DNA of 64,000 nucleotides. Source: Isosphaeraceae bacterium (GTDB taxonomy: Bacteria > Planctomycetota > Planctomycetia > Isosphaerales > Isosphaeraceae). The stretch is taken from assembly GCA_025356475.1 (NCBI GenBank), contig JANXSX010000122.1, positions 1 through 64,000 on the forward strand, written 5' to 3'. Positions 2,945 to 17,964 of this stretch are shown one piece after another. Both the position numbers and the translations under genes were made by a program. Position 1 is the stretch's first letter. Each line of letters opens with the position of its first letter. The notes below the pieces were generated by a model. The model ran no database searches, was not told the origin of the DNA, and was given only the letters and a program-made list of their open reading frames with translations.

Positions 2945-3225
2945 GTGTCTCCGGCAAGTTGGGGGATACCGGATATTTAAGGCATTAATGGTCTAGAACT
3001 GGTGATCATGTCTACGTTCTACTGGGTTGTGCTCGGCCAGTGTCCAGAGTTTTGATCAGTTCAGCGGCCAAGAGAGAACTTGACAGAGAATTCCCAGGCC
3101 AATCCACGTATCGACAGAGGATTTTCGAGTTGCATGGGCCGAGGTCGACACTGATCGAAAACATCAAAATTAATATAAGAATGCTCATATGTTCACAAAG
3201 TCGATCGATTCTGTGAAGTTGCGCG

Positions 3226-3735: not shown

Positions 3736-4334
3736 GAAAATGCCTCCCGCAGCGGACTTCCTGATTCTCTATCGACGCTCTGGATATAGGTAAACGGCCA
3801 TTGTCGGCGAATCAAGAGCCGACCTTTCGATCTCGACGAAAGTCACGGGAAGATCGCTCCACGAACGCGGGGATAACTTGTCCTGGGGGACAACTTGCTC
3901 TGTCTTTTGGGAGTCGGCTCGTGATTCTGGAGGGGAAAAGAGAACAAATAAAGAGGACGGACTGAATAACCAGGCTTAATATAGCCTATTTATTCCATCA
4001 CCTTTTATCGCTCTGATCCGAAGCGGCTCCGCGTGTCGTTCGGATCGGAAGGGTGGACCCGCTGCACGGCCCAAACCCTGAGCCTAGAGTCAACACTCCG
4101 GGGACGCGGCAGACCCAAGCAGACGCTATAATTCCCTTCGTCCTCTTTCTTCGCTTTCGTTTCGGGCGAAATGTGACGGCCTTCTTCTTGTCACCTGCCC
4201 CTTTTTGTAATTATGATCCGGTATTATCTTTGCCATGCATACGACGCGACAAGGGTACTGCCGGGGGTGAGCCGTTACTTCCTGGCAGTCTCGGTGACGG
4301 TACTGGCGAAGTCGCCGCCGATGGAGAACTCCCC
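3736..4334. other. Intergenic region before the phytochrome operon
   Basis: About 600 bases with no convincing gene. An open frame from a GTG at 4053 runs into the small ORF at 4335 but has no protein-like character upstream of it. The base composition is mixed, AT-rich at 3940-4010 and 4180-4240, and the latter stretch contains a candidate promoter. Confidence 0.6.
4188..4216 (+). promoter_or_regulatory. Candidate promoter of the bphO-bphP operon
   Basis: TTGTCA at 4188-4193, a 17-bp spacer and TTATGA at 4211-4216 form a weak sigma70-like promoter about 120 bases before the first small ORF of the operon. A second AT-rich hexamer, TATTAT, begins near 4222. Confidence 0.3.
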
Positions 4335-4433
4335 ATGAATAGCAACCCTACCGACCAATCCCTTGAAGCGCCGCTACCGGCCGAAGAGAGCGATTTCGAC
4401 GAGCGGGGCGACGGCGACTGGGGAACTGCGTGA
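4335..4433 (+). CDS. Small acidic ORF (32 aa) coupled to heme oxygenase
   Basis: ATG 4335 is preceded by GGAG nine to twelve bases upstream and opens a 32-residue, strongly acidic frame ending in G-D-G-D-W-G-T-A. Its TGA overlaps the heme oxygenase ATG in the form TGATG, the classic arrangement for translational coupling. I do not recognise the peptide. It could be a leader peptide, the remnant of a longer gene, or noise; the evidence is the ribosome-binding site and the exact stop-start overlap. High G+C third positions begin here, as in the rest of the operon. Confidence 0.35.
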   Translation: MNSNPTDQSLEAPLPAEESDFDERGDGDWGTA

Positions 4434-5035
4434 TGACGACATCCGCCGCCGTACCACTGATTTTATCCCGACTCCGGGCCGAAACGCGGGCCGAACACGA
4501 GGCCATCGAAGCCGACCTCGACCTGACGGGCGGTGGACTGACCCGCGACCGCTACCGCCGTATCTTGGAACGCTTCTACGGCTTCTATGCCCCGCTCGAA
4601 CATGCTATCCGGGCCGTCGGCGGGTGGGCCGACCGCGACCTCGAACTGGACGCGCGGCGAAAGGGTCCACTGCTCGAAGCCGACTTGCGAACGCTCGGGG
4701 TCGATGCGCCGACAGCACTTCCGCTGTGCGACGACCTGCCGCCTCACGTCACGCCGGCCGACTGTTTCGGCTGCCTGTATGTGCTGGAAGGATCGACGCT
4801 CGGCGGGCAATTCATCAGCCGACACGTACAACACGCCCTCGGGGTGACGCCCGCAACCGGCGGTCGGTTCTTCCACGGGTACGGGGACAAAACGGGCGAG
4901 ATGTGGCAGAGCTTCCGGGCGTCCGTGACGGGCTTCGTCGTGTCCCCGGCCGATCAAGACGCGGCGGTGGCCGCCGCGAAAGACACATTCCAGAAACTAC
5001 ACCGCTGGACTGCAACGCGAGACGATTCACCATGA
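4433..5035 (+). CDS. bphO: Biliverdin-producing heme oxygenase
   Basis: A 200-residue all-helical heme oxygenase of the BphO type. The N-terminal L-R-A-E-T-R-A-E-H-E-A-I segment carries the proximal haem-ligand histidine (E-H at about residue 22), and the distal helix reads L-Y-V-L-E-G-S-T-L-G-G-Q-F-I with the glycine-rich kink typical of the family. It opens haem to biliverdin IX-alpha, the chromophore of the phytochrome encoded next. The ATG at 4433 overlaps the preceding TGA; a GTG at 4430 in the same frame is an alternative. Its own TGA overlaps the bphP ATG (ATGA at 5032-5035), so chromophore enzyme and photoreceptor are made together. Confidence 0.88.
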   Translation: MTTSAAVPLILSRLRAETRAEHEAIEADLDLTGGGLTRDRYRRILERFYGFYAPLEHAIRAVGGWADRDLELDARRKGPLLEADLRTLGVDAPTALPLCDDLPPHVTPADCFGCLYVLEGSTLGGQFISRHVQHALGVTPATGGRFFHGYGDKTGEMWQSFRASVTGFVVSPADQDAAVAAAKDTFQKLHRWTATRDDSP

Positions 5036-7383
5036 CCAATTCCGCTCTTCAAACTGACACCCCGCCGCCCTGGGACGGCCAGCCGTACAGCATCAAGCGG
5101 CACGGCCTCACCCTCACCAACTGCGACTCAGAACCCGTGCAGACGCCCGGGTGCGTCCAGGCCCATGGGGCGCTCCTGGTGTTGCGGTCGACCGACTTGA
5201 CCGTCCTCCAGGCGAGCGAGAACATCGAGAGCCTGCTCGGGCACGGGCCGGACCAACTGCTCGGCCAGTCAGTCGCCGCCGCCGTTGGCCCGAACGGCGA
5301 AGCCCTACTCCGCGAGTTCCTGGCGAGCGAGCCGACTGACCGCAACCCTCTGTACGTGTATACCCTACCAGACCGCGGCGATTTGCCCCCGCTCGACGTG
5401 ACCGTCCACACCATCGACGGCGTGGCGGTGGTCGAGTTCGAGGCTACCGGGCGGACGGACTCCAGCGAGCCGGACTACTACGCACTCGTCAAGAAGACCG
5501 TGACCCGGCTCCAGACAGCCGACACCCTGCGACAATTCTGCGACATCGCCGCCGAAGAGTTCCGCACCCTGACCGGCCTCGACCGGGTGATGGTCTACAA
5601 GTTCCACGCCGACGGGCACGGCGAGGTGTTCGCCGAGAGCAAGCGGGCCGACCTCGCCCCGTGGCTCGGTCTGCACTACCCGGCCGAGGACATCCCCAAA
5701 CCTGCGCGGGACATCTTTCAGCACATCTGGATCCGACCGCTCGCGGACGTTCACGGCGGCCTGGCCGAGTTGGTCCCGCTCACCAACCCGGACACCGGCC
5801 GGGCACTCACGATGACGTACTGTGCCCTGCGCGGGGCGTCGCTCATGTACACCGAATATCTGGCCAACATGGGGGTACGGGCAGCCCTCGTCATGCCCAT
5901 CCGCGGAATGGCCGGGCTGTGGGGCCTGGTCTCCTGCCACCACTACGCCGGGCCGAAGTTCATTCCTTACCAGGTGCGGGCGGCGTGCGAGTTCCTGGCC
6001 CAAGTGGTCTCGCTCCAGTACAAGGCGGCCGAGGATCGAGAACACTTCGTCTACCGGCTCAAGCTCGACGGCGTTCACCAGCAACTCGTCGCCCGGGCGG
6101 CGCAAGAGGGCGACCTGTCGGCCATGACCGACGGCAAGCCGGCCCTGCTCGACGGCCTCGCTGCGGGCGGGGCGGCCCTGTTCCACCGCGACCGCTGGTG
6201 GCGGGTCGGCACGACCCCGACCGAGTCGGAACTGGAAGCCCTCGGCGAGTGGCTGGTCGCGCGCCCGGAATTCGCCTCCGCCACCCGCCCGCTGTACGTC
6301 ACCGACTCGCTCGACCGCGACTACCCGCCGGGCGCGGCGTTCGCCGACGTGGCCAGCGGCGTCCTCGCGTTCCCGCTCTCGCGGGCCGGGAGGAACGTGA
6401 TGCTCTGGTTCCGCCCGGAGACGATTCAAACGGTAAACTGGGGCGGCAACCCGCACGAGAAGCCGACCGTGACGGGGCTGCACGGCCTGCGGCTCACCCC
6501 GCGGCGGAGCTTCGAGCTGTTCGCCGAGTCGGTTCGCGGGCGGTCCCTGCCGTGGACCCCGGTCGAAGTGGACGCGGTCGCCCGCCTGCGGATGTTGGTG
6601 ATGGAACTGGTTGTCAGCCGGGCCGAGCGGCTGGCCGACCTGAACGCCGACCTGTCCCGGTCGAACGAGGAACTCGACGCCTTCGCCTACGTCGCCAGCC
6701 ACGACCTCAAGGAGCCGCTGCGCGGCATCCACAAGTACGCCCACCAGTTACTCGAAGAAGCGGCCGTGACGGACGAGGAGCACCGCAAGAAGCTCGAAAG
6801 GCTGATGCGGCTGACGGTGCGGATGGACGGCCTGCTCGACTCGCTGCTGCACTTCTCCCGGGTCGGTCGGGCGGCCCTCCGGTTCGAGGAGACGGACCTG
6901 AACGAGGTGCTGGCCGAGGCCGTCGAGATGGTCGGCTCGCGGACCGCCGACGGGCGGTCGGAGGTGGTCGCCCCCCGGCCCCTACCACACGTGCGGTGCG
7001 ACCGGGTGCGGTGCCGGGAAATCCTGGTCAACCTCCTGTCGAACGCCCTCAAGTACACTGGCGAGGGGGAGAAGCGGATCGAGGTCGGGTACATCAACCC
7101 GGGCGAAGACCACCCCCGGCCCGCGTGCCCGGACGGGGCCGCAGGTCACTCGATCTTCTACGTCAAGGACAACGGCATCGGCATCAGCCCGAAGCACTTC
7201 GGGCAGGTGTTCAAAATGTTCAAGCGGCTGCACGGGCAGGACGATTACGGGGGTGGGACCGGTGCCGGGCTGACCATCGTGAAGCGGCTGGTCGAGCGGC
7301 ACCGCGGGCAGGTCTGGCTCGACTCGGCACCGGGAACCGGCACCACCTTCTATTTCACCCTGCCGTGCCAGGAAGGAGCCTAG
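5032..7383 (+). CDS. bphP: Bacteriophytochrome histidine kinase
   Basis: A 783-residue bacteriophytochrome with the full PAS-GAF-PHY-HisKA-HATPase order. Cys31 in T-N-C-D-S-E-P lies where bacteriophytochromes bind biliverdin covalently. The GAF domain has H-Y-P-A-E-D-I-P near residue 220, and the PHY domain has W-F-R-P-E-T-I-Q-T-V-N-W-G-G-N-P. The HisKA helix carries the phosphoacceptor His557 in A-S-H-D-L-K-E-P-L-R, followed by an N-box (N-L-L-S-N-A-L-K-Y), D-N-G-I-G-I and a glycine-rich G2 box. It should be a cytoplasmic red/far-red sensor. The open frame extends upstream to 4363, but that part merely shadows bphO; ATG 5032 overlaps the bphO stop. Nearly every third codon position is G or C. 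Confidence 0.92.
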   Translation: MTNSALQTDTPPPWDGQPYSIKRHGLTLTNCDSEPVQTPGCVQAHGALLVLRSTDLTVLQASENIESLLGHGPDQLLGQSVAAAVGPNGEALLREFLASEPTDRNPLYVYTLPDRGDLPPLDVTVHTIDGVAVVEFEATGRTDSSEPDYYALVKKTVTRLQTADTLRQFCDIAAEEFRTLTGLDRVMVYKFHADGHGEVFAESKRADLAPWLGLHYPAEDIPKPARDIFQHIWIRPLADVHGGLAELVPLTNPDTGRALTMTYCALRGASLMYTEYLANMGVRAALVMPIRGMAGLWGLVSCHHYAGPKFIPYQVRAACEFLAQVVSLQYKAAEDREHFVYRLKLDGVHQQLVARAAQEGDLSAMTDGKPALLDGLAAGGAALFHRDRWWRVGTTPTESELEALGEWLVARPEFASATRPLYVTDSLDRDYPPGAAFADVASGVLAFPLSRAGRNVMLWFRPETIQTVNWGGNPHEKPTVTGLHGLRLTPRRSFELFAESVRGRSLPWTPVEVDAVARLRMLVMELVVSRAERLADLNADLSRSNEELDAFAYVASHDLKEPLRGIHKYAHQLLEEAAVTDEEHRKKLERLMRLTVRMDGLLDSLLHFSRVGRAALRFEETDLNEVLAEAVEMVGSRTADGRSEVVAPRPLPHVRCDRVRCREILVNLLSNALKYTGEGEKRIEVGYINPGEDHPRPACPDGAAGHSIFYVKDNGIGISPKHFGQVFKMFKRLHGQDDYGGGTGAGLTIVKRLVERHRGQVWLDSAPGTGTTFYFTLPCQEGA

Positions 7384-7384
7384 C

Positions 7385-7828
7385 ATGACCGCCGTACCGA
7401 AACTGCCACCCATCATCATCGTCGAGGACTCGGACGAGGACTTCGACACCGTCCAGCAAGCCGTGCGGAAGGCCGGCGTCGTGGCGGAGGTCCGGCGGGC
7501 CACGACCGGGGGCGGGTGCCTGGACCTCCTCCACGGCGTCGCCGCGATCCGCCCGGCGATGGTGCTGATGGACCTGAACACGCCGGGCACCGACGGCCGG
7601 GAGGCGCTCGCGGCCATCAAGGGGGACGACGCGCTCAGGGCGTTTCCGGTGGTGGTGTTCAGCACGTCGGCCGACCCCCGCGACCTGCTGTACTGTTACA
7701 CCACCGGGGCGAACGCCTACCACGTCAAGCCCATCCGCTACCCCGACCACCTCCAGCTCGTCATCGACATTCTCACCTACTGGCTCGGAAGGGTCGCCCT
7801 GCCGGACCCCGGAGAGACAAGCCCATGA
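7385..7828 (+). CDS. Single-domain response regulator (Rcp1 type)
   Basis: A 147-residue receiver domain with the acidic pair E-D near residue 14, phosphoacceptor Asp63 in L-M-D-L-N-T-P-G, the conserved serine/threonine in V-V-F-S-T-S-A and the lysine in Y-H-V-K-P. The L-N-T-P-G and H-V-K-P-I-R-Y signatures match the small response regulators that accompany bacterial and cyanobacterial phytochromes. The ATG lies one base after the bphP stop, and the TGA overlaps the next ATG. It has no output domain, so it probably relays phosphate from BphP to another protein, possibly to or from the hybrid kinase that follows. Confidence 0.88.
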   Translation: MTAVPKLPPIIIVEDSDEDFDTVQQAVRKAGVVAEVRRATTGGGCLDLLHGVAAIRPAMVLMDLNTPGTDGREALAAIKGDDALRAFPVVVFSTSADPRDLLYCYTTGANAYHVKPIRYPDHLQLVIDILTYWLGRVALPDPGETSP

Positions 7829-10800
7829 CGACCGTTTCGGCTCAAATAGAGGCCCAGGTGTGGCGGGTCGTCGTCATCGACGACAGCCCGGACGACCGGG
7901 CCGAGGTCCGCCGGCTCCTCCTGAAGGGGTCCGAGCGGCGGTACCAGTTCGTCGAGGCCGAGACCGGGGCGGCCGGGGTGCGGGCCGCCCTCGACCCAGT
8001 CGCCGGGCCGCCGGGGTGCGTCGTCCTCGACTACAACCTGCCGGACCTGGACGCGGTGGAGGTGCTGGCGGCCCTGGCCGGCCCTGACGGCCTGACGGCC
8101 TGCCCGGTGGTGGTGCTGACCGGCACCGTCGGCCACGAGCACACCCGGGCGGTCCTCCGGGCCGGGGCGCAGGACTACCTCGGCAAGGGGTGGATGACCC
8201 CCGAGAGCCTGACCCGCGCGGTCGAGAACGCGACCGAGCGGTGGGTCATGGCCCGCGAACTGCGCAAGCAGAAGGCGGCTCTAAAGACGAGCGACGACCG
8301 CTTCCGGCTCGCCGCCGACGCCGTGAACGGCATCATCTACGAGTGGGACATCCTGACCGGTCACGTCGAGCGGCAACGTGGGCTGTACGAAGTCCTCGGC
8401 TACCACGCCGTCGAGGTTCCGCTGACCGCCGCATGGTGGCGGGAGCAAATCCACCCCGACGACCTGGAGGTAGTCGAGCAGCAGTTCACGGAGTTAGCGG
8501 GCAACTCCGTCGTGAGCGAGTACCGGGTGCGGCACAGGGACGGGCGTTGGCTGCACCTTGAGGACCGGGCCGTGTTGCTGCGGGGCGACGACGACCGCCC
8601 GGTGAAGATGGTCGGCTGCGCGGTGGACATCACCGACCGCAAGCGGGCCGAAGAGCGGCTGCGGTACAGCGAGCAGTTGCACCGCGTTGCGTTCGACCAA
8701 TCCCCGACCGGAATGGTTTACGTCGGGGCGGACGGGCGGCTCATCAAGGTGAACCCTGCGATGTGCGTGATCACCGGCTACCCCGCCGAGGAGTTGGTAG
8801 GGATGAAGGTGTCCGACCTCACGCACCCGGATGACCTGGCCGCCGACGCCGAACTCGTCACCCCCTTCCTGCGCGGCGACACGCTGACCTACGAGAACGA
8901 CAAGCGATATGTGCGGAAGGACGGCGGCGTCCGCTGGGTGTCCATCACCGAACGTATGGTGACGGACGCTGAGGGCCAACCGCTCCATAGTGTGGGCGTC
9001 GTCCGGGACATCACCGAGCGCAAGCGGGTCGAGGGGGAGCGGCAGCTTCTCGCCTCGATTGTGGAGAACTCGTCCGACTTCATCGGCATCTCGGACACGC
9101 AAGGCAACCCGGTGTACGGCAACCGGGCGGCGATGGAACTCGTCGGCGTCCAAGACCTCGAGCAGGTCTGGCGTACTAAGATTGTCGAATACTTCGTCCC
9201 GGAGCAGCGACCATTCGTCGCAGAAGTTATCCTGCCCGCCGTCGTTAAGGACGGGCGCTGGTGTGGCGAACTGACGATGCAACATTTCGTCACGGGGGCG
9301 ACGATCCCCGTCTGGTACGACCTGTTCCGGGTAGACGACCCGGTGACGGGCCGGCCGATCAACTTCGCCACCATAACCCGCGACCTCACCGAGTCGAAGC
9401 GGGCCGTGGAGACGCTCCGGGCGAGCGAGGCGTTCAACCGCAGCCTGATGGAAGGGAGTGCCGATTGCGTTAAGGTGCTGGACTTGGACGGGCGACTGCT
9501 GCACATGAACTCCCCCGGCCTGTGCCTGATGGAGATTGACGACATCGGGCCGCTGTGCGGGCAGGAGTGGCCGGCCCTGTGGCCGGCCGAGGCCGAAGTC
9601 GGCATCCGCCGGGCCGTCGCCGCAGCCAGCGGCGGCGACAGCTACTCGTTCCGGGCGTTCTGCCCGACGGCGAAAGGGACGCCCAAGTGGTGGGATGTGG
9701 TCGTTAGTCCCGTTTGCAACGCCGCCGGGCGGGCCGTGCATCTGTTGGCGGTCTCCCGCGACATCACCGCCTACAAGGAGGCCGAGGACGCGCTAAGCGC
9801 GAACGAGGAGCGACTGCGGATGGCCCTGGCCGCCGCCCAGGCCGGGGCGTGGGCGTGGGAGGTATCGACCGAGGTCATCACCTGGTCGCCAGAAAACTAC
9901 GAACTCTACGGGTACGACCCCCAGGCCGGCGGTCCGCCGGCCTACGCCGACTGGAAGGAACGGGTCCACCCGGACGACCGCACGCAGGCGTACGCCGCCG
10001 TCGACGACGCCCTAGCCGGCCGCACCCCCGAGTTCCGGTCCGAGTTCCGCGTCACCCACCCGACCCGCGGCGACCGCTGGCTGCTCGGCCTCGGGCGGGT
10101 CGAGTTCGCCCCTAACGGGGAGCCGCTTCGCGTGGTCGGCATCAACCTGGACATCACCGACCGCAAGCGGACCGAGCAGTTAATGGCCGAGCAGGACGTG
10201 CGGAAGGACGAGTTCCTGGCCACCCTGGCCCACGAACTCCGTAACCCGCTCGCCCCGATCCGCAGCGGGGTGGCCGTCCTCCGCATGACTCACGCGCCCG
10301 AGCTAACCGAGAAGACGCTCGGGATAATCGACCGGCAGCTCGGGCACCTGGTCAACCTGGTGGACGACCTGCTCGACGTGTCCCGGGTGCGGGCCGGGAA
10401 GATCACTTTGCGGACCGAGCAGGTGACGGTCCGCGACGCGGTGGACGCAGCCGTCGAGGCGTGCCGGCCCGCCATCGACGAGAAGTCCCACACGCTCGAC
10501 GTGGACCTCCCAGCCGAGTCGCTGGCCGTGACCGGGGACAAGACCCGGTTGGTGCAGGTGGTCGCCAACCTGCTCACCAACGCGGCCAAGTATAGCGAGC
10601 CGGGCGGCCACATCCGGATCACTGTCAAGCGTGACGGCAAGAAGGCTCTCGTGAGTGTCTCGGACACCGGCATGGGCATCGCGCGGGAAACCCTGCCAAC
10701 CCTGTGGGACATGTTCACCCAGGTGCGGGACACGCTGGACAAGGCCCAGGGCGGCCTCGGAATCGGGCTGTCCCTGGTCAAGAAACTGGTCGAGATGCAC

Positions 10801-11331
10801 GGCGGGTCGGTCGCGGCCGAGAGTGCCGGGGTCGGCCGCGGCAGTACCTTCACCGTCCTCCTGCCGCTCGCCTCAGCGAGCATGGCCGCCGCACCGTCCG
10901 TGCCGTTACCGGAGAGCAACGGGTCAGCCCGCCCGGCGGCCCGGCGGGTGCTCGTGGTGGACGACAACGTGGACGGGGCCGAGATCCTGGCCCGGCTGCT
11001 CACGTTCTCAGGCCACCGGGTTGAGGCCGTCCACAGCGGACCAGCCGCATTGGAAGCCGCCCAAATGTTCTTGCCCGACGTGGTACTCCTCGACATCGGC
11101 CTGCCCGGGATGGACGGCTACGAGGTCGCCAAGCGGCTTCGCGCCGACCCGACCACGGCCGCCGCCGTCCTCGTGGCGCTGACGGGTTGGGGGAACGAGG
11201 ACGACAAGCGGAAGTGCCGGGAGGCCGGGTTCGACGTTCACCTGACCAAGCCCGTCGAATTCGCGGCCTTGACAGACGCGCTCTCCCGCTCTTCCTCCCT
11301 CAACCGGCGAGACGGCAGTTGGCACTGGTGA
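7825..11331 (+). CDS. Hybrid histidine kinase, REC-PAS(x5)-HisKA-HATPase-REC
   Basis: A 1168-residue cytoplasmic kinase without membrane segments. Order of domains: receiver (Asp69, about 10-130), five PAS/PAC modules (about 150 to 790, each closed by an R-D-I-T or D-I-T-D-R-K type PAC end), HisKA with His803 in A-H-E-L-R-N-P-L-A-P, HATPase_c (N-L-L-T-N-A-A-K-Y; D-T-G-M-G-I), and a C-terminal receiver (Asp1090 in L-L-D-I-G-L-P-G-M-D-G). ATG 7825 overlaps the previous stop. Receivers at both ends fit a phosphorelay in which the N-terminal one takes input from the phytochrome branch. The last three codons and the stop lie inside the left terminal repeat of the mobile element that follows, so the original C-terminus was probably slightly different; both receivers look intact. 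Confidence 0.9.
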   Translation: MTTVSAQIEAQVWRVVVIDDSPDDRAEVRRLLLKGSERRYQFVEAETGAAGVRAALDPVAGPPGCVVLDYNLPDLDAVEVLAALAGPDGLTACPVVVLTGTVGHEHTRAVLRAGAQDYLGKGWMTPESLTRAVENATERWVMARELRKQKAALKTSDDRFRLAADAVNGIIYEWDILTGHVERQRGLYEVLGYHAVEVPLTAAWWREQIHPDDLEVVEQQFTELAGNSVVSEYRVRHRDGRWLHLEDRAVLLRGDDDRPVKMVGCAVDITDRKRAEERLRYSEQLHRVAFDQSPTGMVYVGADGRLIKVNPAMCVITGYPAEELVGMKVSDLTHPDDLAADAELVTPFLRGDTLTYENDKRYVRKDGGVRWVSITERMVTDAEGQPLHSVGVVRDITERKRVEGERQLLASIVENSSDFIGISDTQGNPVYGNRAAMELVGVQDLEQVWRTKIVEYFVPEQRPFVAEVILPAVVKDGRWCGELTMQHFVTGATIPVWYDLFRVDDPVTGRPINFATITRDLTESKRAVETLRASEAFNRSLMEGSADCVKVLDLDGRLLHMNSPGLCLMEIDDIGPLCGQEWPALWPAEAEVGIRRAVAAASGGDSYSFRAFCPTAKGTPKWWDVVVSPVCNAAGRAVHLLAVSRDITAYKEAEDALSANEERLRMALAAAQAGAWAWEVSTEVITWSPENYELYGYDPQAGGPPAYADWKERVHPDDRTQAYAAVDDALAGRTPEFRSEFRVTHPTRGDRWLLGLGRVEFAPNGEPLRVVGINLDITDRKRTEQLMAEQDVRKDEFLATLAHELRNPLAPIRSGVAVLRMTHAPELTEKTLGIIDRQLGHLVNLVDDLLDVSRVRAGKITLRTEQVTVRDAVDAAVEACRPAIDEKSHTLDVDLPAESLAVTGDKTRLVQVVANLLTNAAKYSEPGGHIRITVKRDGKKALVSVSDTGMGIARETLPTLWDMFTQVRDTLDKAQGGLGIGLSLVKKLVEMHGGSVAAESAGVGRGSTFTVLLPLASASMAAAPSVPLPESNGSARPAARRVLVVDDNVDGAEILARLLTFSGHRVEAVHSGPAALEAAQMFLPDVVLLDIGLPGMDGYEVAKRLRADPTTAAAVLVALTGWGNEDDKRKCREAGFDVHLTKPVEFAALTDALSRSSSLNRRDGSWHW

Positions 11332-11831
11332 ACATTTCTGGGTGCCACTAGTCGTACCTGACTAGTGCCTTCATGGGGCCATCGGCGGTCCTTGCTCAGA
11401 GGAGATTTTCAGGTGAATTTCGTCGACTCTGAACGCACGTTAAGAGATTTCACGCGCCCGGTAATTGCCACGAGTTGACTTCTCGTACCATCCTCGGATG
11501 CCGCTCTTGACCAACACTACGAGCGGCCCGGATTTCATCGTCTTCGATCCTTGCAGGAAAGGCAAGTTCTGATCGGAACCGCCGGTCCGCCAAGTCCGAG
11601 GAAGCCACGATCGCCTCTATGATACGAGAACCCGGTTCGTCGACAACTCTGCAAGAAGATGGCTGATTGGCGATGGTCGAGTGCTCGTCACGACTAGGTG
11701 CACGGAAAATCCATTGCCAATCCAGGAATTGACCTGAGAATTCTCTGCTGAATTCTCACTTGGCCGCCGAATAGATCAAGACACTTGCCGAGTACGACCC
11801 AGTGGATCCCCAGACATGCTCACCAGTGCCA
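11320..11831. mobile_element. MITE-like element, copy A (512 bp)
   Basis: Ends are perfect 11-bp inverted repeats, TGGCACTGGTG at 11320-11330 and CACCAGTGCCA at 11821-11831; allowing mismatches and small gaps the inverted repeat extends for about 50 bp. No open frame codes for a recognisable transposase. The right-hand two thirds match copy B at 12595-12933, while 11367-11557 is absent from copy B and matches a separate repeat at 17770-17964. I saw no clear target-site duplication. The family is not one I can name. Confidence 0.7.
11367..11557. repeat. 190-bp dispersed repeat, copy inside element A
   Basis: This stretch aligns with 17770-17964 along most of its length, sharing blocks such as GGTCCTTGCTCA, GATTTCACG and TTGACCAACA-like segments in the same order. 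It is missing from the related element B, so it looks like a nested insertion. A small hairpin, ACGAG and CTCGT around a 7-base loop, is conserved in form between the copies. Confidence 0.6.
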
Positions 11832-11936
11832 TCCGCCGGGCTGGCCGATCAAAAATCGATCAAAGCGTGCTTGCGCAAGCTGCTTGAGCCAAAAAACGCC
11901 TCAGGCGTACGCCGGTTGCTGTCGGGGACGTGAATA

Positions 11937-12263
11937 CTAACCTTCATTCTCTTTCGGATTTACCGGCTTTTCGCCCGGTGCTCCGATGGCGAGAATGACC
12001 ACCTCGTCGCCTCGGACGACGAAGAGTGCTCGATATTTCCGGCCCTTCGGGAGCCCAAAGAGCAGATGACGAACCTCTTCGTCAAAGCCCGGGTTCTCGT
12101 AGGCGAGGCCGCAGGAGAGGGGAAATTACGCAAGGCGGGAGAGACATTCTTCGAAGCGTGCTTCGAGACGGTCGGCCGCCTGGGGAAACCGTTCGGCAAG
12201 CGATTCGAGGAGACGATTCATGTCCTTGCGGGCTCGCTCCGAAAACTCAATTCGGTAATTCAT
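11937..12263 (-). pseudogene. RelE/ParE-family toxin, inactivated by a stop codon
   Basis: The frame starts at ATG 12263, overlapping the antitoxin stop as ATGA, and reads as a ParE-type toxin: M-N-Y-R-I-E-F-S-E-R-A-R-K-D near the start, then after about 45 codons an in-frame TAA (12128-12126), and beyond it F-P-L-S-C-G-L-A-Y-E-N and K-G-R-K-Y-R-A-L-F-V-V with R-G-D-E-V-V-I-L-A-I-G, ending at TAG 11939-11937. Apart from the TAA the frame is continuous for 108 codons, the normal size of the family, so a single base change separates it from an intact mRNA interferase or gyrase poison. The antitoxin upstream is intact. Confidence 0.85.
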
Positions 12264-12514
12264 CGATTACCAAGGCGAAATTTTTTGCGGAGATCGGCGA
12301 GGACTTCGTTGGCGGGACGAGTTCTCCCGGCATACATATCGTCCAAGCCTTCACGGATAGCCACGGCGGTCTCCTCTCGCTCCTCATCGGTCTGATTCTC
12401 GTATTCCCAGAGGTCGAGAGCCTCTTCGAGCGTGATGTTTGCCCCACCGTTTGAGAGCTTGGCGTCGGCGAAATCGCGGAAAGCTTTCAGGTCATTCGCT
12501 CGTACTGTTTCCAT
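12260..12514 (-). CDS. Type II antitoxin, partner of the broken ParE toxin
   Basis: An 84-residue acidic protein starting M-E-T-V-R-A-N-D-L-K and containing E-A-L-D-L-W-E-Y-E-N-Q-T-D-E-E-R-E-E-T and a C-terminal I-R-E-G-L-D-D-M-Y-A-G-R-T-R-P-A-type segment that is common in planctomycete toxin-antitoxin antitoxins. ATG 12514 has GGGAGGG ten bases upstream; a TTG at 12523 in the same frame is too close to that site. The TGA overlaps the toxin ATG by four bases (ATGA). With the toxin dead, this is an orphan antitoxin, perhaps kept for regulation or for neutralising a related toxin elsewhere. Confidence 0.75.
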   Translation of the reverse strand: METVRANDLKAFRDFADAKLSNGGANITLEEALDLWEYENQTDEEREETAVAIREGLDDMYAGRTRPANEVLADLRKKFRLGNR

Positions 12515-12594
12515 AGTGTTCAAACCCTCCCAGGCTTCACTTCTAGAATAACACTAAGGGCGAATTTTGGGTGCGATTGATGAAGCACTGGCAT

Positions 12595-12933
12595 GTGGCA
12601 CTAGTGAACAATTCTGGGTTTCACTGATCGTACTCGACTAAGGAGATCAGAGCGGACGCAAAAACGCGAGAAGAACTCCCCTTCCTTGCTACAGACACCT
12701 CTTAATACGAGAACCCGGTTCGTCGACAACTCTGCAAGAAGTTGGTTGATTGGCGATGGTCGAGAGATCGTCGCAACCAAGTGGACGGGAAAGGCACCCC
12801 CCAACTCGAAAATCCACCGCCGATTGAGGGCTTGCCTTAGAATTCTCTGCTCAGCCCTTGCTTGGCCACCGAACAGATCATGACTGTGGTCGAGTACGAC
12901 CAAGTGGCACACAGACATGCTTAGAAGTGCCAC
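12595..12933. mobile_element. MITE-like element, copy B (339 bp)
   Basis: GTGGCACT at 12595-12602 is repeated inverted as AGTGCCAC at 12926-12933, and the imperfect inverted repeat runs on for about 50 bp including GTCGTACTCGAC-like sequence. The interior shares a long block with copy A, beginning ACGAGAACCCGGTTCGTCGA and including AACTCTGCAAGAAG and TTGATTGGCGATGGTCGA. A 110-residue open frame on the minus strand has no recognisable domain and is probably incidental. Confidence 0.68.
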
Positions 12934-12946
12934 CCGCCGGAGATCT

Positions 12947-13389: not shown

Positions 13390-15537
13390 ATGATTAACAC
13401 AGTATGGGGCAGCACAGATAAGCCCGTTGCGAGCTGGCGGCTGGCGCAAATTCTCAACGCGGAAGCGGACCTCGAAGGCACTCTCTACATTGGGTATCCA
13501 ATAATCGGCACGCCTGAGGGTTCCTTTCCGATAGATGCGTTACTCGTGTCGCCGACCAAAGGCCTCGTTTTGTTTAGCGTGGTTGAAGGCAGGGTTCTCC
13601 CGGACTTCGTCGAGGCACAAGACGAGGGCTTTAATAAGATGCAGGCAAAGCTGCTTCAGCATCAGACCCTGATCCGCAAGCGGCAGCTGATTGTTCGTAT
13701 TCACACAGTCACTTTTGCGCCTGCCATCCTGCAACTTGAACCTTCCGACGATTACCACCTTCTCTGCAATGCAGACACCTTGGTTTCGACTATCAAAGCA
13801 CTCGATTGTTTCGACTCGGAGGTTTTCCCGTCACTGGTTTCGGTCATTCAAGCAATATCCACACTACGAAGGGGCAGGAAAAAGCGCGCACTGCACAGCC
13901 AAACTTCGCGAGGCACTAAGATTAAGGCATTGGAAGATTCGATCGCGAATCTCGACAGCCAGCAAAGCGCAGCAGTGGTTGAAACGTATGAAGGTGTTCA
14001 GCGGATTCGTGGGCTCGCAGGATGTGGCAAGACCATCGTTCTGGCTTTGAAGGTAGCCTACTTGCACGCCCGCCATCGGGACTGGTTGATCGCTGTAACA
14101 TTCAGCACACGGTCACTTAAAAAGCAGTTCGAGAACCTCATCACGACATTCGTGCTAGAGCAGGCAAACGAAGAGCCGGATTGGGACAAAATCCGCATCT
14201 TGAATGCGTGGGGCGCACCGGGCGGATCCGACCGCACTGGCATCTACTACGAGTTCTGCTGTGACCATGGCGTCGAGTATCTTGATTTTGGAACCGCAAA
14301 GAATCGCTTCGGGTCCGACAAAGCGTTTGAAGCGTCGTGTGAAACCGCCCTTCAAAGTGTCAAACAATTCGTCCCAAAATACGATGCGATCCTCGTCGAT
14401 GAGGCTCAGGATTTTGCGCCCAACTTCTTGTTGCTCTGTTACGAATATCTCAAGGAGCCGAAGCGCCTAGTCTACGCATACGACGAGTTGCAGAACCTCG
14501 GGAATAGGTCACTTCCGCCTGTCGAAGAAATCTTCGGAAAAAACACAGATGGAACTGCCCGCGTCGTCATCCACCCGCCCGAGACAGGCAAGCCAAAGCA
14601 GGATATCATCCTCGACACCTGCTACCGCAACTCGCGCCCTGTCTTGTCCACGGCTCACGCACTTGGGTTTGGGGTTTACCGCGCCAAGGGCCTAGCTCAA
14701 ATCTTTGAAAACAAGAACCTCTGGTTCGACATCGGCTACCAAGAGACCGATGGGGAAATCAAAGACGGCAAACTCGTGACTATCAGCCGCACGCCAAAAT
14801 CCAGTCCTGAGTTTTTGGAAACCCATTCTCCCGTGGATGACTTGATTCAGTTTGAAGTCTTCAAAACCGCCGAAGCACAGACTGCCTGGCTCGTTGCGGA
14901 AATTGAGGGGAACCTGACTAAGGACGAACTGATACCTGACGATATTGTCGTCATCAATCCTGACCCGTTAACAACGAAGGAGGCAGTCGGAGAGGCGCGA
15001 CGGATGCTGTTGCAGATGGGAATCAATTCGAACCTCGCTGGAGTGACGACGATTGCCGATGTTTTCACCGAGCCAGGGACTGTGACGTTTACTGGCATCT
15101 TCCGCGCAAAGGGGAATGAGGCTGCGATGGTTTATGTGATCAACGCACAGGATTGTTTTGGAGCAAACCTGCCAAGGGATGTCGCACGCGTCCGAAACCG
15201 CCTTTTTACGGCAATCACACGCTCGAAAGCTTGGGTGCGAGTTCTCGGTGTTGGGGAGGCGATGTCGGCTCTGAAGGAGGAGTTCGAAAAGGCGAAGAAG
15301 CAGAACTTTGCGCTGCACTTTGTCTACCCAACCGAAGACGAGCGGATGACGATGATGACTGTAAATCGTGACATGTCGAAAGCAGAGCAGGACCGAAGCA
15401 ATAAACGTACAAACGATTTTGCTGACATTATCGAGTCCTTGGATTCAGGAGAGAGCGTCATCGAAGATTATCCCGATGACCTGGTGAAGAAGTTTCAAAC
15501 CTTTGTGGCCAACAAAGCCAAACGCCGCCGAAAATGA
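13390..15537 (+). CDS. Superfamily I helicase with N-terminal NERD-like nuclease region
   Basis: 715 residues. The N-terminal part (about 20-110) contains P-I-D-A-L-L-V-S-P-T-K-G-L-V-L-F and resembles a NERD/PD-(D/E)XK nuclease, although the usual E-x-K is not intact (V-V-E-G-R). A UvrD/Rep-type motor follows: Walker A G-L-A-G-C-G-K-T near residue 208, Walker B L-V-D-E-A-Q-D-F near 335, a C-Y-R-N-S motif, and a C-terminal T-A-I-T-R-S-K motif VI near 608, ending in a lysine/arginine tail. It probably unwinds or senses DNA ends in the cytoplasm. The start has a weak ribosome-binding site. Its stop overlaps the DUF2290 gene by four bases. G+C is lower and codon use different from the operons on either side, consistent with transfer. 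Confidence 0.82.
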   Translation: MINTVWGSTDKPVASWRLAQILNAEADLEGTLYIGYPIIGTPEGSFPIDALLVSPTKGLVLFSVVEGRVLPDFVEAQDEGFNKMQAKLLQHQTLIRKRQLIVRIHTVTFAPAILQLEPSDDYHLLCNADTLVSTIKALDCFDSEVFPSLVSVIQAISTLRRGRKKRALHSQTSRGTKIKALEDSIANLDSQQSAAVVETYEGVQRIRGLAGCGKTIVLALKVAYLHARHRDWLIAVTFSTRSLKKQFENLITTFVLEQANEEPDWDKIRILNAWGAPGGSDRTGIYYEFCCDHGVEYLDFGTAKNRFGSDKAFEASCETALQSVKQFVPKYDAILVDEAQDFAPNFLLLCYEYLKEPKRLVYAYDELQNLGNRSLPPVEEIFGKNTDGTARVVIHPPETGKPKQDIILDTCYRNSRPVLSTAHALGFGVYRAKGLAQIFENKNLWFDIGYQETDGEIKDGKLVTISRTPKSSPEFLETHSPVDDLIQFEVFKTAEAQTAWLVAEIEGNLTKDELIPDDIVVINPDPLTTKEAVGEARRMLLQMGINSNLAGVTTIADVFTEPGTVTFTGIFRAKGNEAAMVYVINAQDCFGANLPRDVARVRNRLFTAITRSKAWVRVLGVGEAMSALKEEFEKAKKQNFALHFVYPTEDERMTMMTVNRDMSKAEQDRSNKRTNDFADIIESLDSGESVIEDYPDDLVKKFQTFVANKAKRRRK

Positions 15538-16199
15538 CACCCAAGCAAACGCTCAAACAGATCAATGAACTCACCCAGGCTCTGGTGGGACTGAGCCTTT
15601 CGAATGAGCAGAATTTTCCAACTACGCAGGGGAAACCCAAGGCGGCGTTCGAGATTTCAGTGAGCACCGCCGCAGGAATGAGCGTCGCACTTAAAAATTT
15701 AGCTTACCGTGACATCTACGGGGAGCTGGAGAAAGCGCGGTGCTTCAACATCAAGATGCTGGATGGCGCATTGGTTTCACTTCGCTACCGCTTTCTGGCC
15801 GGAGTCATCCGCGAACATTCGCTCGCATACTTCCCGTCTCCGGACCTCGAACATTTTCAGAACGAGCCCGAAATTTATCTGGAGGACGAGATCTATGCGG
15901 ATGTCGTTGCGAAAAATATCGTGCCGTTCCCTATTCGTTTCGACTTTAGTGACGACAAAGAGAAGTTTGTGGACGTTGACCACCCGTATTCCCACTTAAC
16001 GCTCGGCCAATACAAGAATTGCCGAATACCAGTCTGCTCCCCACTTGGACCGCTTGCTTTCGGCGGCTTCATTTTGAGGAACTTCTACAACACGGCCTTC
16101 CGCAAATTCTCAGACAGATTTCCAACCAGCAAATTGGGATTCGCCAACACAATCACCGCGAAGGAAAGAAAGATCCAGCATGTCGTCTTAGGCGTGTAG
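15534..16199 (+). CDS. DUF2290 family protein, partner of the helicase
   Basis: 221 residues, no signal or membrane segment. The Y-R-D-I-Y-x-E-L-E-K-A-R, K-M-L-D-G-A-L-V-S-L-R-Y, F-P-S-P-D-L-E-x-F-Q-N-x-P-E-I-Y-L-E-D-E-I-Y-A-D and H-P-x-S-H-L-T-L-G-Q-Y-K-N-C-R-I-P segments, plus the C-terminal F-I-L-R-N-F-Y-N-T-A-F, are the full-length signature of DUF2290 as I know it. The family has no assigned activity. The ATG overlaps the helicase stop (ATGA at 15534-15537), so the two proteins are made in fixed ratio and probably act together. The invariant histidines, aspartates and glutamates leave room for a metal-dependent activity, but that is a guess. Confidence 0.75.
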   Translation: MTPKQTLKQINELTQALVGLSLSNEQNFPTTQGKPKAAFEISVSTAAGMSVALKNLAYRDIYGELEKARCFNIKMLDGALVSLRYRFLAGVIREHSLAYFPSPDLEHFQNEPEIYLEDEIYADVVAKNIVPFPIRFDFSDDKEKFVDVDHPYSHLTLGQYKNCRIPVCSPLGPLAFGGFILRNFYNTAFRKFSDRFPTSKLGFANTITAKERKIQHVVLGV

Positions 16200-17769: not shown

Positions 17770-17964
17770 GCCTTTGTAGGGCCTTCAAAGGTCCTTGCTC
17801 ACAGGCGATCTTCACATTACTGACTCGACTATGTGCGGTGGTCGAAGGAGCGTCAACAGATTTCACGAGCCCGGTGATTGCCGCGAGTTGAACTTCTCGT
17901 GCTACTGTCAGGTGTCGCGCCTGACCAACATTTCGAGGGGTCGGGACTTCATCCAACGTGCAGG
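17770..17964. repeat. 190-bp dispersed repeat, second copy
   Basis: Aligns with 11367-11557 over its length in the same orientation, with shared GGTCCTTGCTCA, GATTTCACG(A/C)GCCCGGT and GACCAACA blocks. No terminal inverted repeats are visible around this copy. It marks the right edge of the scarred accessory block, just before the catalase gene. Confidence 0.6.

Follow-up and report, generated by a model that had tools for sequence, protein, structure and literature searches.

The locus studied here raises the question of how a light-sensing operon of foreign composition came to lie in the genome of an Isosphaeraceae planctomycete, and to what its light signal is wired. The window, that is, the whole stretch of DNA analysed, covers 64,000 nt of a 106-kb contig in a 5.9-Mb draft genome of 232 contigs (G000). 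The evidence below indicates that the locus is probably a horizontally acquired, translationally coupled red/far-red cassette in which a bacteriophytochrome (BphP) addresses both a stand-alone response regulator (RR) and REC1, the N-terminal receiver of a hybrid kinase, with REC1 acting as the light port of an otherwise exchangeable kinase.

Gene content and operon type

The open reading frames and Pfam matches bore out the heme oxygenase (HO), phytochrome, response regulator and 1168-residue hybrid kinase that a sequence-only reading had described (Table 1). The TGATG, ATGA, one-base and ATGA junctions that it listed were also found, with the TGATG coupling an unnamed short open reading frame to HO, not two named genes; the others separate HO from BphP, BphP from RR and RR from the kinase, respectively. 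The four-base RR/kinase overlap recurs in two other Isosphaeraceae genomes, G018 (L032, 9637/9640) and G005 (L033, 17179/17182), as well as in Polaromonas (L143, 9827/9830) and Schlesneria (L155, 5609/5612), and the HO/BphP overlap recurs in loci L145 and L151; translational coupling is thus a kept feature and not a chance one. The short open reading frame is a possible leader of the cassette; when it was weighed as a leader or conserved partner, this role was unsupported and conservation was not found. In G005, its place is taken by an open reading frame of ~75 codons with a MerR-like helix-turn-helix recognised by eye (L033, 13550–13800), which seems to overlap the HO start by ATGA, has no counterpart in the window and is a possible regulator of that cassette.

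Table 1. Positions of the cassette genes, their parts and the flanking repeats in the window
Feature	Position	Strand	Basis
Fragment of the 11313–11838 element, upstream of the cassette, inverted	2998..3126		Repeat analysis
Short open reading frame, 32 codons (MNSNPTDQSLEAPLPAEESDFDERGDGDWGTA)	4335..4433	+	Open reading frame; TGATG-coupled to HO
Heme oxygenase (HO, BphO type), predicted biliverdin maker	4433..5035	+	PF01126, 7.5e-18; HemO/pa-HO relatives in PDB
Bacteriophytochrome BphP, 783 aa, PAS_2-GAF-PHY-HisKA-HATPase	5032..7383	+	Pfam; solved bacteriophytochromes matched over the full length
Cys31, position of biliverdin attachment (C24 in DrBphP)	5122..5124	+	Alignments
Tyr273 at DrBphP H260 position	5848..5850	+	Alignment of 103 homologues
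His557, phospho-accepting His of BphP	6700..6702	+	His in 102/103 homologues
Single-domain response regulator RR, 147 aa	7385..7828	+	PF00072; 1k66, 9.6e-33 (RcpB, Calothrix)
Hybrid kinase, 1168 aa, REC1-PAS5-HisKA-HATPase-REC2	7825..11331	+	Pfam, TIGR00229
REC1, N-terminal receiver, inherited together with BphP and RR	7861..8244	+	Identity by part, correlations
3' end of the unbroken DNA match to the cassettes of G018 and G005, kinase residues 144–146	8258..8264	+	DNA comparison
Five PAS units, residues ~150–275, 276–402, 403–527, 528–653, 654–783	8272..10173	+	Pfam, TIGR00229, repeat family D1
HisKA + HATPase_c	10204..10872	+	Pfam
REC2, C-terminal receiver	10948..11283	+	Pfam
Dispersed host element, 526 bp, imperfect inverted-repeat ends (30 nt, 87%)	11313..11838		Repeat analysis
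Second decayed copy of this element	12582..12940 (about)		Repeat analysis
Further copy of this element	~17770–17953		Repeat analysis

All five BphP domains (PAS_2, GAF, PHY, HisKA and HATPase_c) scored above their Pfam cut-offs, and alignment placed the N-terminal biliverdin-binding Cys at Cys31. Across 103 aligned homologues, Asp220, the Asp of the PASDIP motif, was invariant (103/103); the second pocket His (His304) and the PRxSF tongue motif (PRRSF at 490–494) are also kept. The usual pocket His is absent, and Tyr273 stands at the position that corresponds, by motif, to His260 of DrBphP. This position is occupied by His in 67, Cys in 17 (mostly cyanobacterial) and Tyr in 19 of the homologues. 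Because this His is usual but not defining, and cyanobacterial members of the superfamily vary here too, the assignment as a bacteriophytochrome leans on the other features. The BphP clade of the window contains 16 of the Tyr carriers and its sister group the remaining three, so that nearly the whole cassette clade carries Tyr; a Tyr-for-His260 clade appears to be new, as none was found in the papers searched (open-licence full texts only).

RR consists of a receiver only and begins one base after BphP, in the manner of phytochrome-linked regulators. Its best PDB match was RcpB (116 bits), compared with 63–78 bits for other solved regulators of this kind. The hFWAhL dimer motif of the arm-in-arm subtype (RtBRR and AtBRR) is not present in RR, the aligned residues being TYWLGRV. 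The last gene encodes a hybrid histidine kinase, with HisKA, HATPase_c and receivers on a single chain. Receivers at both of its ends and five PAS domains, as noted earlier from the sequence, were recovered by Pfam and by TIGR00229 (five stretches), and each PAS unit closes with a D(I/L)T-type motif. The acceptor Asp is kept in RR, REC1 and REC2.

Known systems resemble the operon to different degrees. In the cyanobacterial pairs Cph1/Rcp1 and CphB/RcpB, too, a CheY-like regulator that lacks an output domain follows the phytochrome kinase; the operon in the window adds HO and the hybrid kinase, and its BphP carries the attachment Cys at the N terminus, as biliverdin-binding phytochromes do. 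Deinococcus radiodurans shares the BphO-BphP-RR arrangement, and DrBphP shares the Cys, PASDIP Asp and tongue motif, but DrBphP differs at the pocket His and in having PASDIP where the window has PAEDIP. In other Isosphaeraceae (Paludisphaera soli, L182), REC-REC-HisKA-HATPase-REC kinases occupy the same operon position behind BphP-RR and have receivers at both ends, but they carry two N-terminal receivers and no PAS units, and their BphP is ~44% identical. The gene order itself has been described before, in the non-photosynthetic Ramlibacter tataouinensis TTB310, whose operon hmuO-RtBphP1-RtBRR-RtBHK (Rta_25460 to Rta_25490; PMC6848086) corresponds to that of the window gene for gene, down to the single-domain RR and the hybrid kinase. 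RtBphP1 is autophosphorylated in the dark and passes the phosphate to its RR, and loss of BphP and loss of the hybrid kinase give an identical cell-division phenotype (PMC6848086). Polaromonas, a carrier of the clade found in the window, is also a betaproteobacterium (Comamonadaceae); the window differs in its five PAS units and its planctomycete host.

Origin of the cassette

As a reference for the composition of the operon, we used the window together with ~280 kb of sampled contigs, comprising 176 native open reading frames of at least 200 aa. The G+C content of the operon was 0.684, against 0.54–0.59 in sampled pieces of the same genome, and the GC3 values of BphP, RR and the kinase (0.898, 0.925 and 0.895, respectively) exceeded the native maximum (mean 0.662, sd 0.052, max 0.826, n=176). 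HO was only mildly raised (0.745, ~94th percentile). The contrast in G+C and third-position bias previously noted against the flanks thus extends to the sampled genome, and the operon composition is not genome-wide. The G018 and G005 cassettes resemble their own surroundings (0.633 vs 0.638 and 0.661 vs 0.632, respectively), and the window copy therefore probably arrived via a higher-GC host. HO may have a separate history, given its mildly raised GC3 and its absence beside BphP in G018; there (L032, 6100–6842), the DNA is stop-riddled up to the BphP start, which suggests a scar at the end of this copy, too. Elsewhere in the window genome, a 438-aa open reading frame (L065, 2810–4126, contig C120; GC 0.686, GC3 0.826) was the sampled native one closest to the cassette in composition, and it is possibly another import.

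The window BphP was 75–78% identical to the copies in G018 and G005, which belong to two other Isosphaeraceae genera, and 60–64% identical to copies in Polaromonas, Rubrivivax, Herminiimonas and Methylococcaceae; more distant named relatives were Byssovorax (54%) and Schlesneria (50%). Identity to G020, the sister of the window genome by RpoB, was 44.5%. At an identity of at least 70%, this BphP type occurred in 3 of 45 Isosphaeraceae genomes, including that of the window, and the congeners of G018 and G005, together with the RpoB sister, carried types just 44–52% identical. The cassette is hence not shared by all close relatives, with two other carriers among the 45 genomes. Of 392 evenly drawn Planctomycetota, none but the window genome and G050 (44%) reached E 1e-160.

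The BphP and RpoB trees were discordant. RpoB paired G000 with G020 (99/99), G018 with G031 (100/100) and G005 with G023/G033 (94/93), while the BphP tree united G000, G018 and G005 (100/100) away from these partners. Accordingly, RpoB/BphP identities were 85.8/77.6 for G000–G018 and 89.6/44.5 for G000–G020, and those of the same-genus pairs were 93.9/51.6 (G018–G031) and 92.7/45.6 (G005–G023). AU tests rejected the host-tree groups G018+G031 (p = 1.4e-4), G005+G023+G033 (5e-57) and G000+G020 (7e-35). Foreign composition, a discordant gene tree and the AU tests all point to horizontal acquisition of the cassette, which supports the import proposed by the sequence-only reading.

Vertical inheritance, in which a few Isosphaeraceae would have retained an old paralogous cassette that others lost, its high GC being produced by selection, is very unlikely in our estimate. 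Same-order cassettes do occur in many members of the family, and Isosphaeraceae have therefore long had such systems. However, a BphP identity of 75–78% at an RpoB identity of 85% fits pairs with RpoB at ~96% (G013–G062: 96.3/74.6), and a pair at the same RpoB distance in another BphP clade is lower (G020–G023: 84.5/62.7). GC3 also lies ~4.5–5 sd above native, and proteobacterial sequences are nested inside the clade.

The three planctomycete BphPs formed one clade with beta- and gammaproteobacterial ones (100/99), with Myxococcota next. In most proteobacterial loci of the clade, HO was followed by BphP, RR and a kinase that starts with a receiver, as in the window; contig ends truncate some of these loci. 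As every close proteobacterial record comes from a metagenome assembly, the host labels are provisional; in their favour, several bins obtained independently agree, and the GC contents fit (0.47–0.50 in Methylococcaceae, 0.62–0.68 in betaproteobacteria). A 3.4-kb contig with HO and a BphP of this clade is filed in a Klebsiella pneumoniae metagenome bin (L152) and is most likely misbinned. The clade appears to have moved between at least three phyla, in most cases as a cassette, and this cross-phylum movement is apparently new, being absent from the open-licence full texts searched; nor did we find among such texts a paper joining phytochrome with Isosphaeraceae.

Copies of a dispersed host element lie on both sides of the cassette, in agreement with the mobile-element scars reported before. 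The hybrid kinase takes its final codons and its stop from the copy at the 3' junction; since REC2 ends before this copy, the kinase is complete. The family has ~25 matches in its own genome and was present in only one of 39 relatives. The element ends are CGGCRGGTGGCACTGGTGAACATTTCTGGGTG, and contig C218 (L082) carries end-like repeats in tandem. No transposase was identified for the element, no integrase was recognised among the flanking open reading frames scanned, and no target-site duplication at the element was evident by eye.

Since the 3' junction falls exactly at this element, the type of site at which chimeric joins occur, and the genome is a draft in many contigs, an assembly or binning artefact was considered, in which a repeat led to a foreign contig piece being fused with host sequence. 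Copies of the element elsewhere in the genome differ from that at the junction by ~6% or more over short stretches, making repeat collapse unlikely, and the DNA at the 5' transition is unique in the genome except for a 50-bp patch. The cassette moreover lies inside its contig, and the listed contamination is 1.62%. We regard an artefact as most improbable, and retain horizontal acquisition.

Other features were observed around the cassette. Upstream, an imperfect inverted repeat (3935–4163, 33-nt arms, 76%) contains a 50-bp part that recurs four times in the genome, once on C218 near the end-like copies. Downstream, between two copies of the element, a decayed toxin-antitoxin-like pair was recognised by eye on the minus strand (11940–12515), in which an in-frame stop apparently interrupts a ParE/RelE-like frame and the antitoxin-like open reading frame looks intact. 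Just beyond, in low-GC (0.51–0.52) DNA, lies a candidate anti-phage defence pair (13390–16199), with one gene matching the PADLOC model 'Helicase' over its full length at 1043 bits and the other matching the model 'DUF2290' at 325 bits.

The REC1 boundary

DNA homology to the window was unbroken over 5031–8258 in G018 and over 4756–8264 in G005, and both stretches stop at the helix after REC1. Identities to G018 and G005 were 76 and 73% for the photosensory module, 63 and 62% for RR, 76 and 72% for REC1, and 53 and 53% for the kinase core, respectively. We then correlated pairwise identities over 12 cassettes of the clade, using the photosensory module as the reference. The correlation was strong with the BphP kinase part (r 0.92), RR (0.84) and REC1 (0.85), weak with the hybrid-kinase core (0.35) and nil with REC2 (0.01); the REC2 figure is noisy, because the G005 kinase leaves its contig and its REC2 value comes from a stray receiver.

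The middle of the kinase varied with the host. It consists of five PAS units in the window and of a different PAS set in G018; G005 and Polaromonas (L143) combine GAF with PAS, other Isosphaeraceae have a second receiver at this place, and no domains were detected there in loci L146 and L155. A search of 58 relatives at E<=1e-150 yielded no orthologue covering the whole hybrid kinase. These patterns argue that BphP, RR and REC1 travel as one unit across hosts, the kinase downstream of REC1 being exchanged. The correlation of RR and REC1 with BphP could come partly from physical linkage, both being nearer to BphP, and not from interaction; against linkage alone, REC1 and the core share one open reading frame, yet the change is abrupt at the domain edge. 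Co-inheritance of REC1 with an abrupt exchange point appears to be new, judging from the open-licence full texts searched.

It is also conceivable that REC1 and RR are not both targets of BphP, with REC1 an allosteric or dimerisation domain and the kinase a separate system that merely shares the operon, as the evolution of its core and REC2 independently of BphP might suggest. We consider this unlikely, as REC1 tracks BphP as closely as RR does despite lying in the same open reading frame as the non-tracking core, and as both receivers retain the acidic pair, acceptor Asp, Thr/Ser and Lys. Furthermore, the Ramlibacter hybrid-kinase mutant phenocopies the BphP mutants (PMC6848086).

Predicted signal flow and its meaning

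In the preferred reading, with BphP acting on both receivers, HO would make biliverdin, which BphP would bind through Cys31. BphP would then serve as a light-switched histidine kinase controlling the phosphorylation of RR and REC1, with REC1 as a fixed light port gating the hybrid kinase and the five PAS domains feeding other cues into it. The HisKA/HATPase core would load REC2, which may pass the phosphate to an Hpt protein encoded elsewhere in the genome, where five Hpt matches were found. That phosphate flows in this direction, that BphP targets REC1 and that an Hpt step follows are predictions from sequence. The catalytic and chromophore residues, which are largely intact, and the Ramlibacter operon of the same order (PMC6848086) support the light-sensing phosphorelay proposed earlier, with phosphotransfer being predicted. 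The proposal of a branched relay joining light with other signals gains indirect support from the co-evolution of REC1 with BphP and the swapping of the PAS/kinase part. By analogy with Ramlibacter, the system may influence growth mode or the cell cycle.

More speculatively, BphP, RR and REC1 could form a mobile 'light adaptor' grafted onto recipient kinase cores across phyla, with a Tyr-for-His260 phytochrome of altered photochemistry; we see this as a tentative possibility. If true, it would place exchangeable multi-input kinases under light control. The clade supplies natural phytochromes with Tyr in place of a pocket His usually regarded as conserved. To our knowledge, single-domain phytochrome regulators mostly have no known target, and a REC1 that follows the phytochrome through cross-phylum transfers would offer a concrete downstream step for the Rcp-type pathway. 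The REC1 pattern may also represent a natural design rule for wiring light control to different hybrid kinases.
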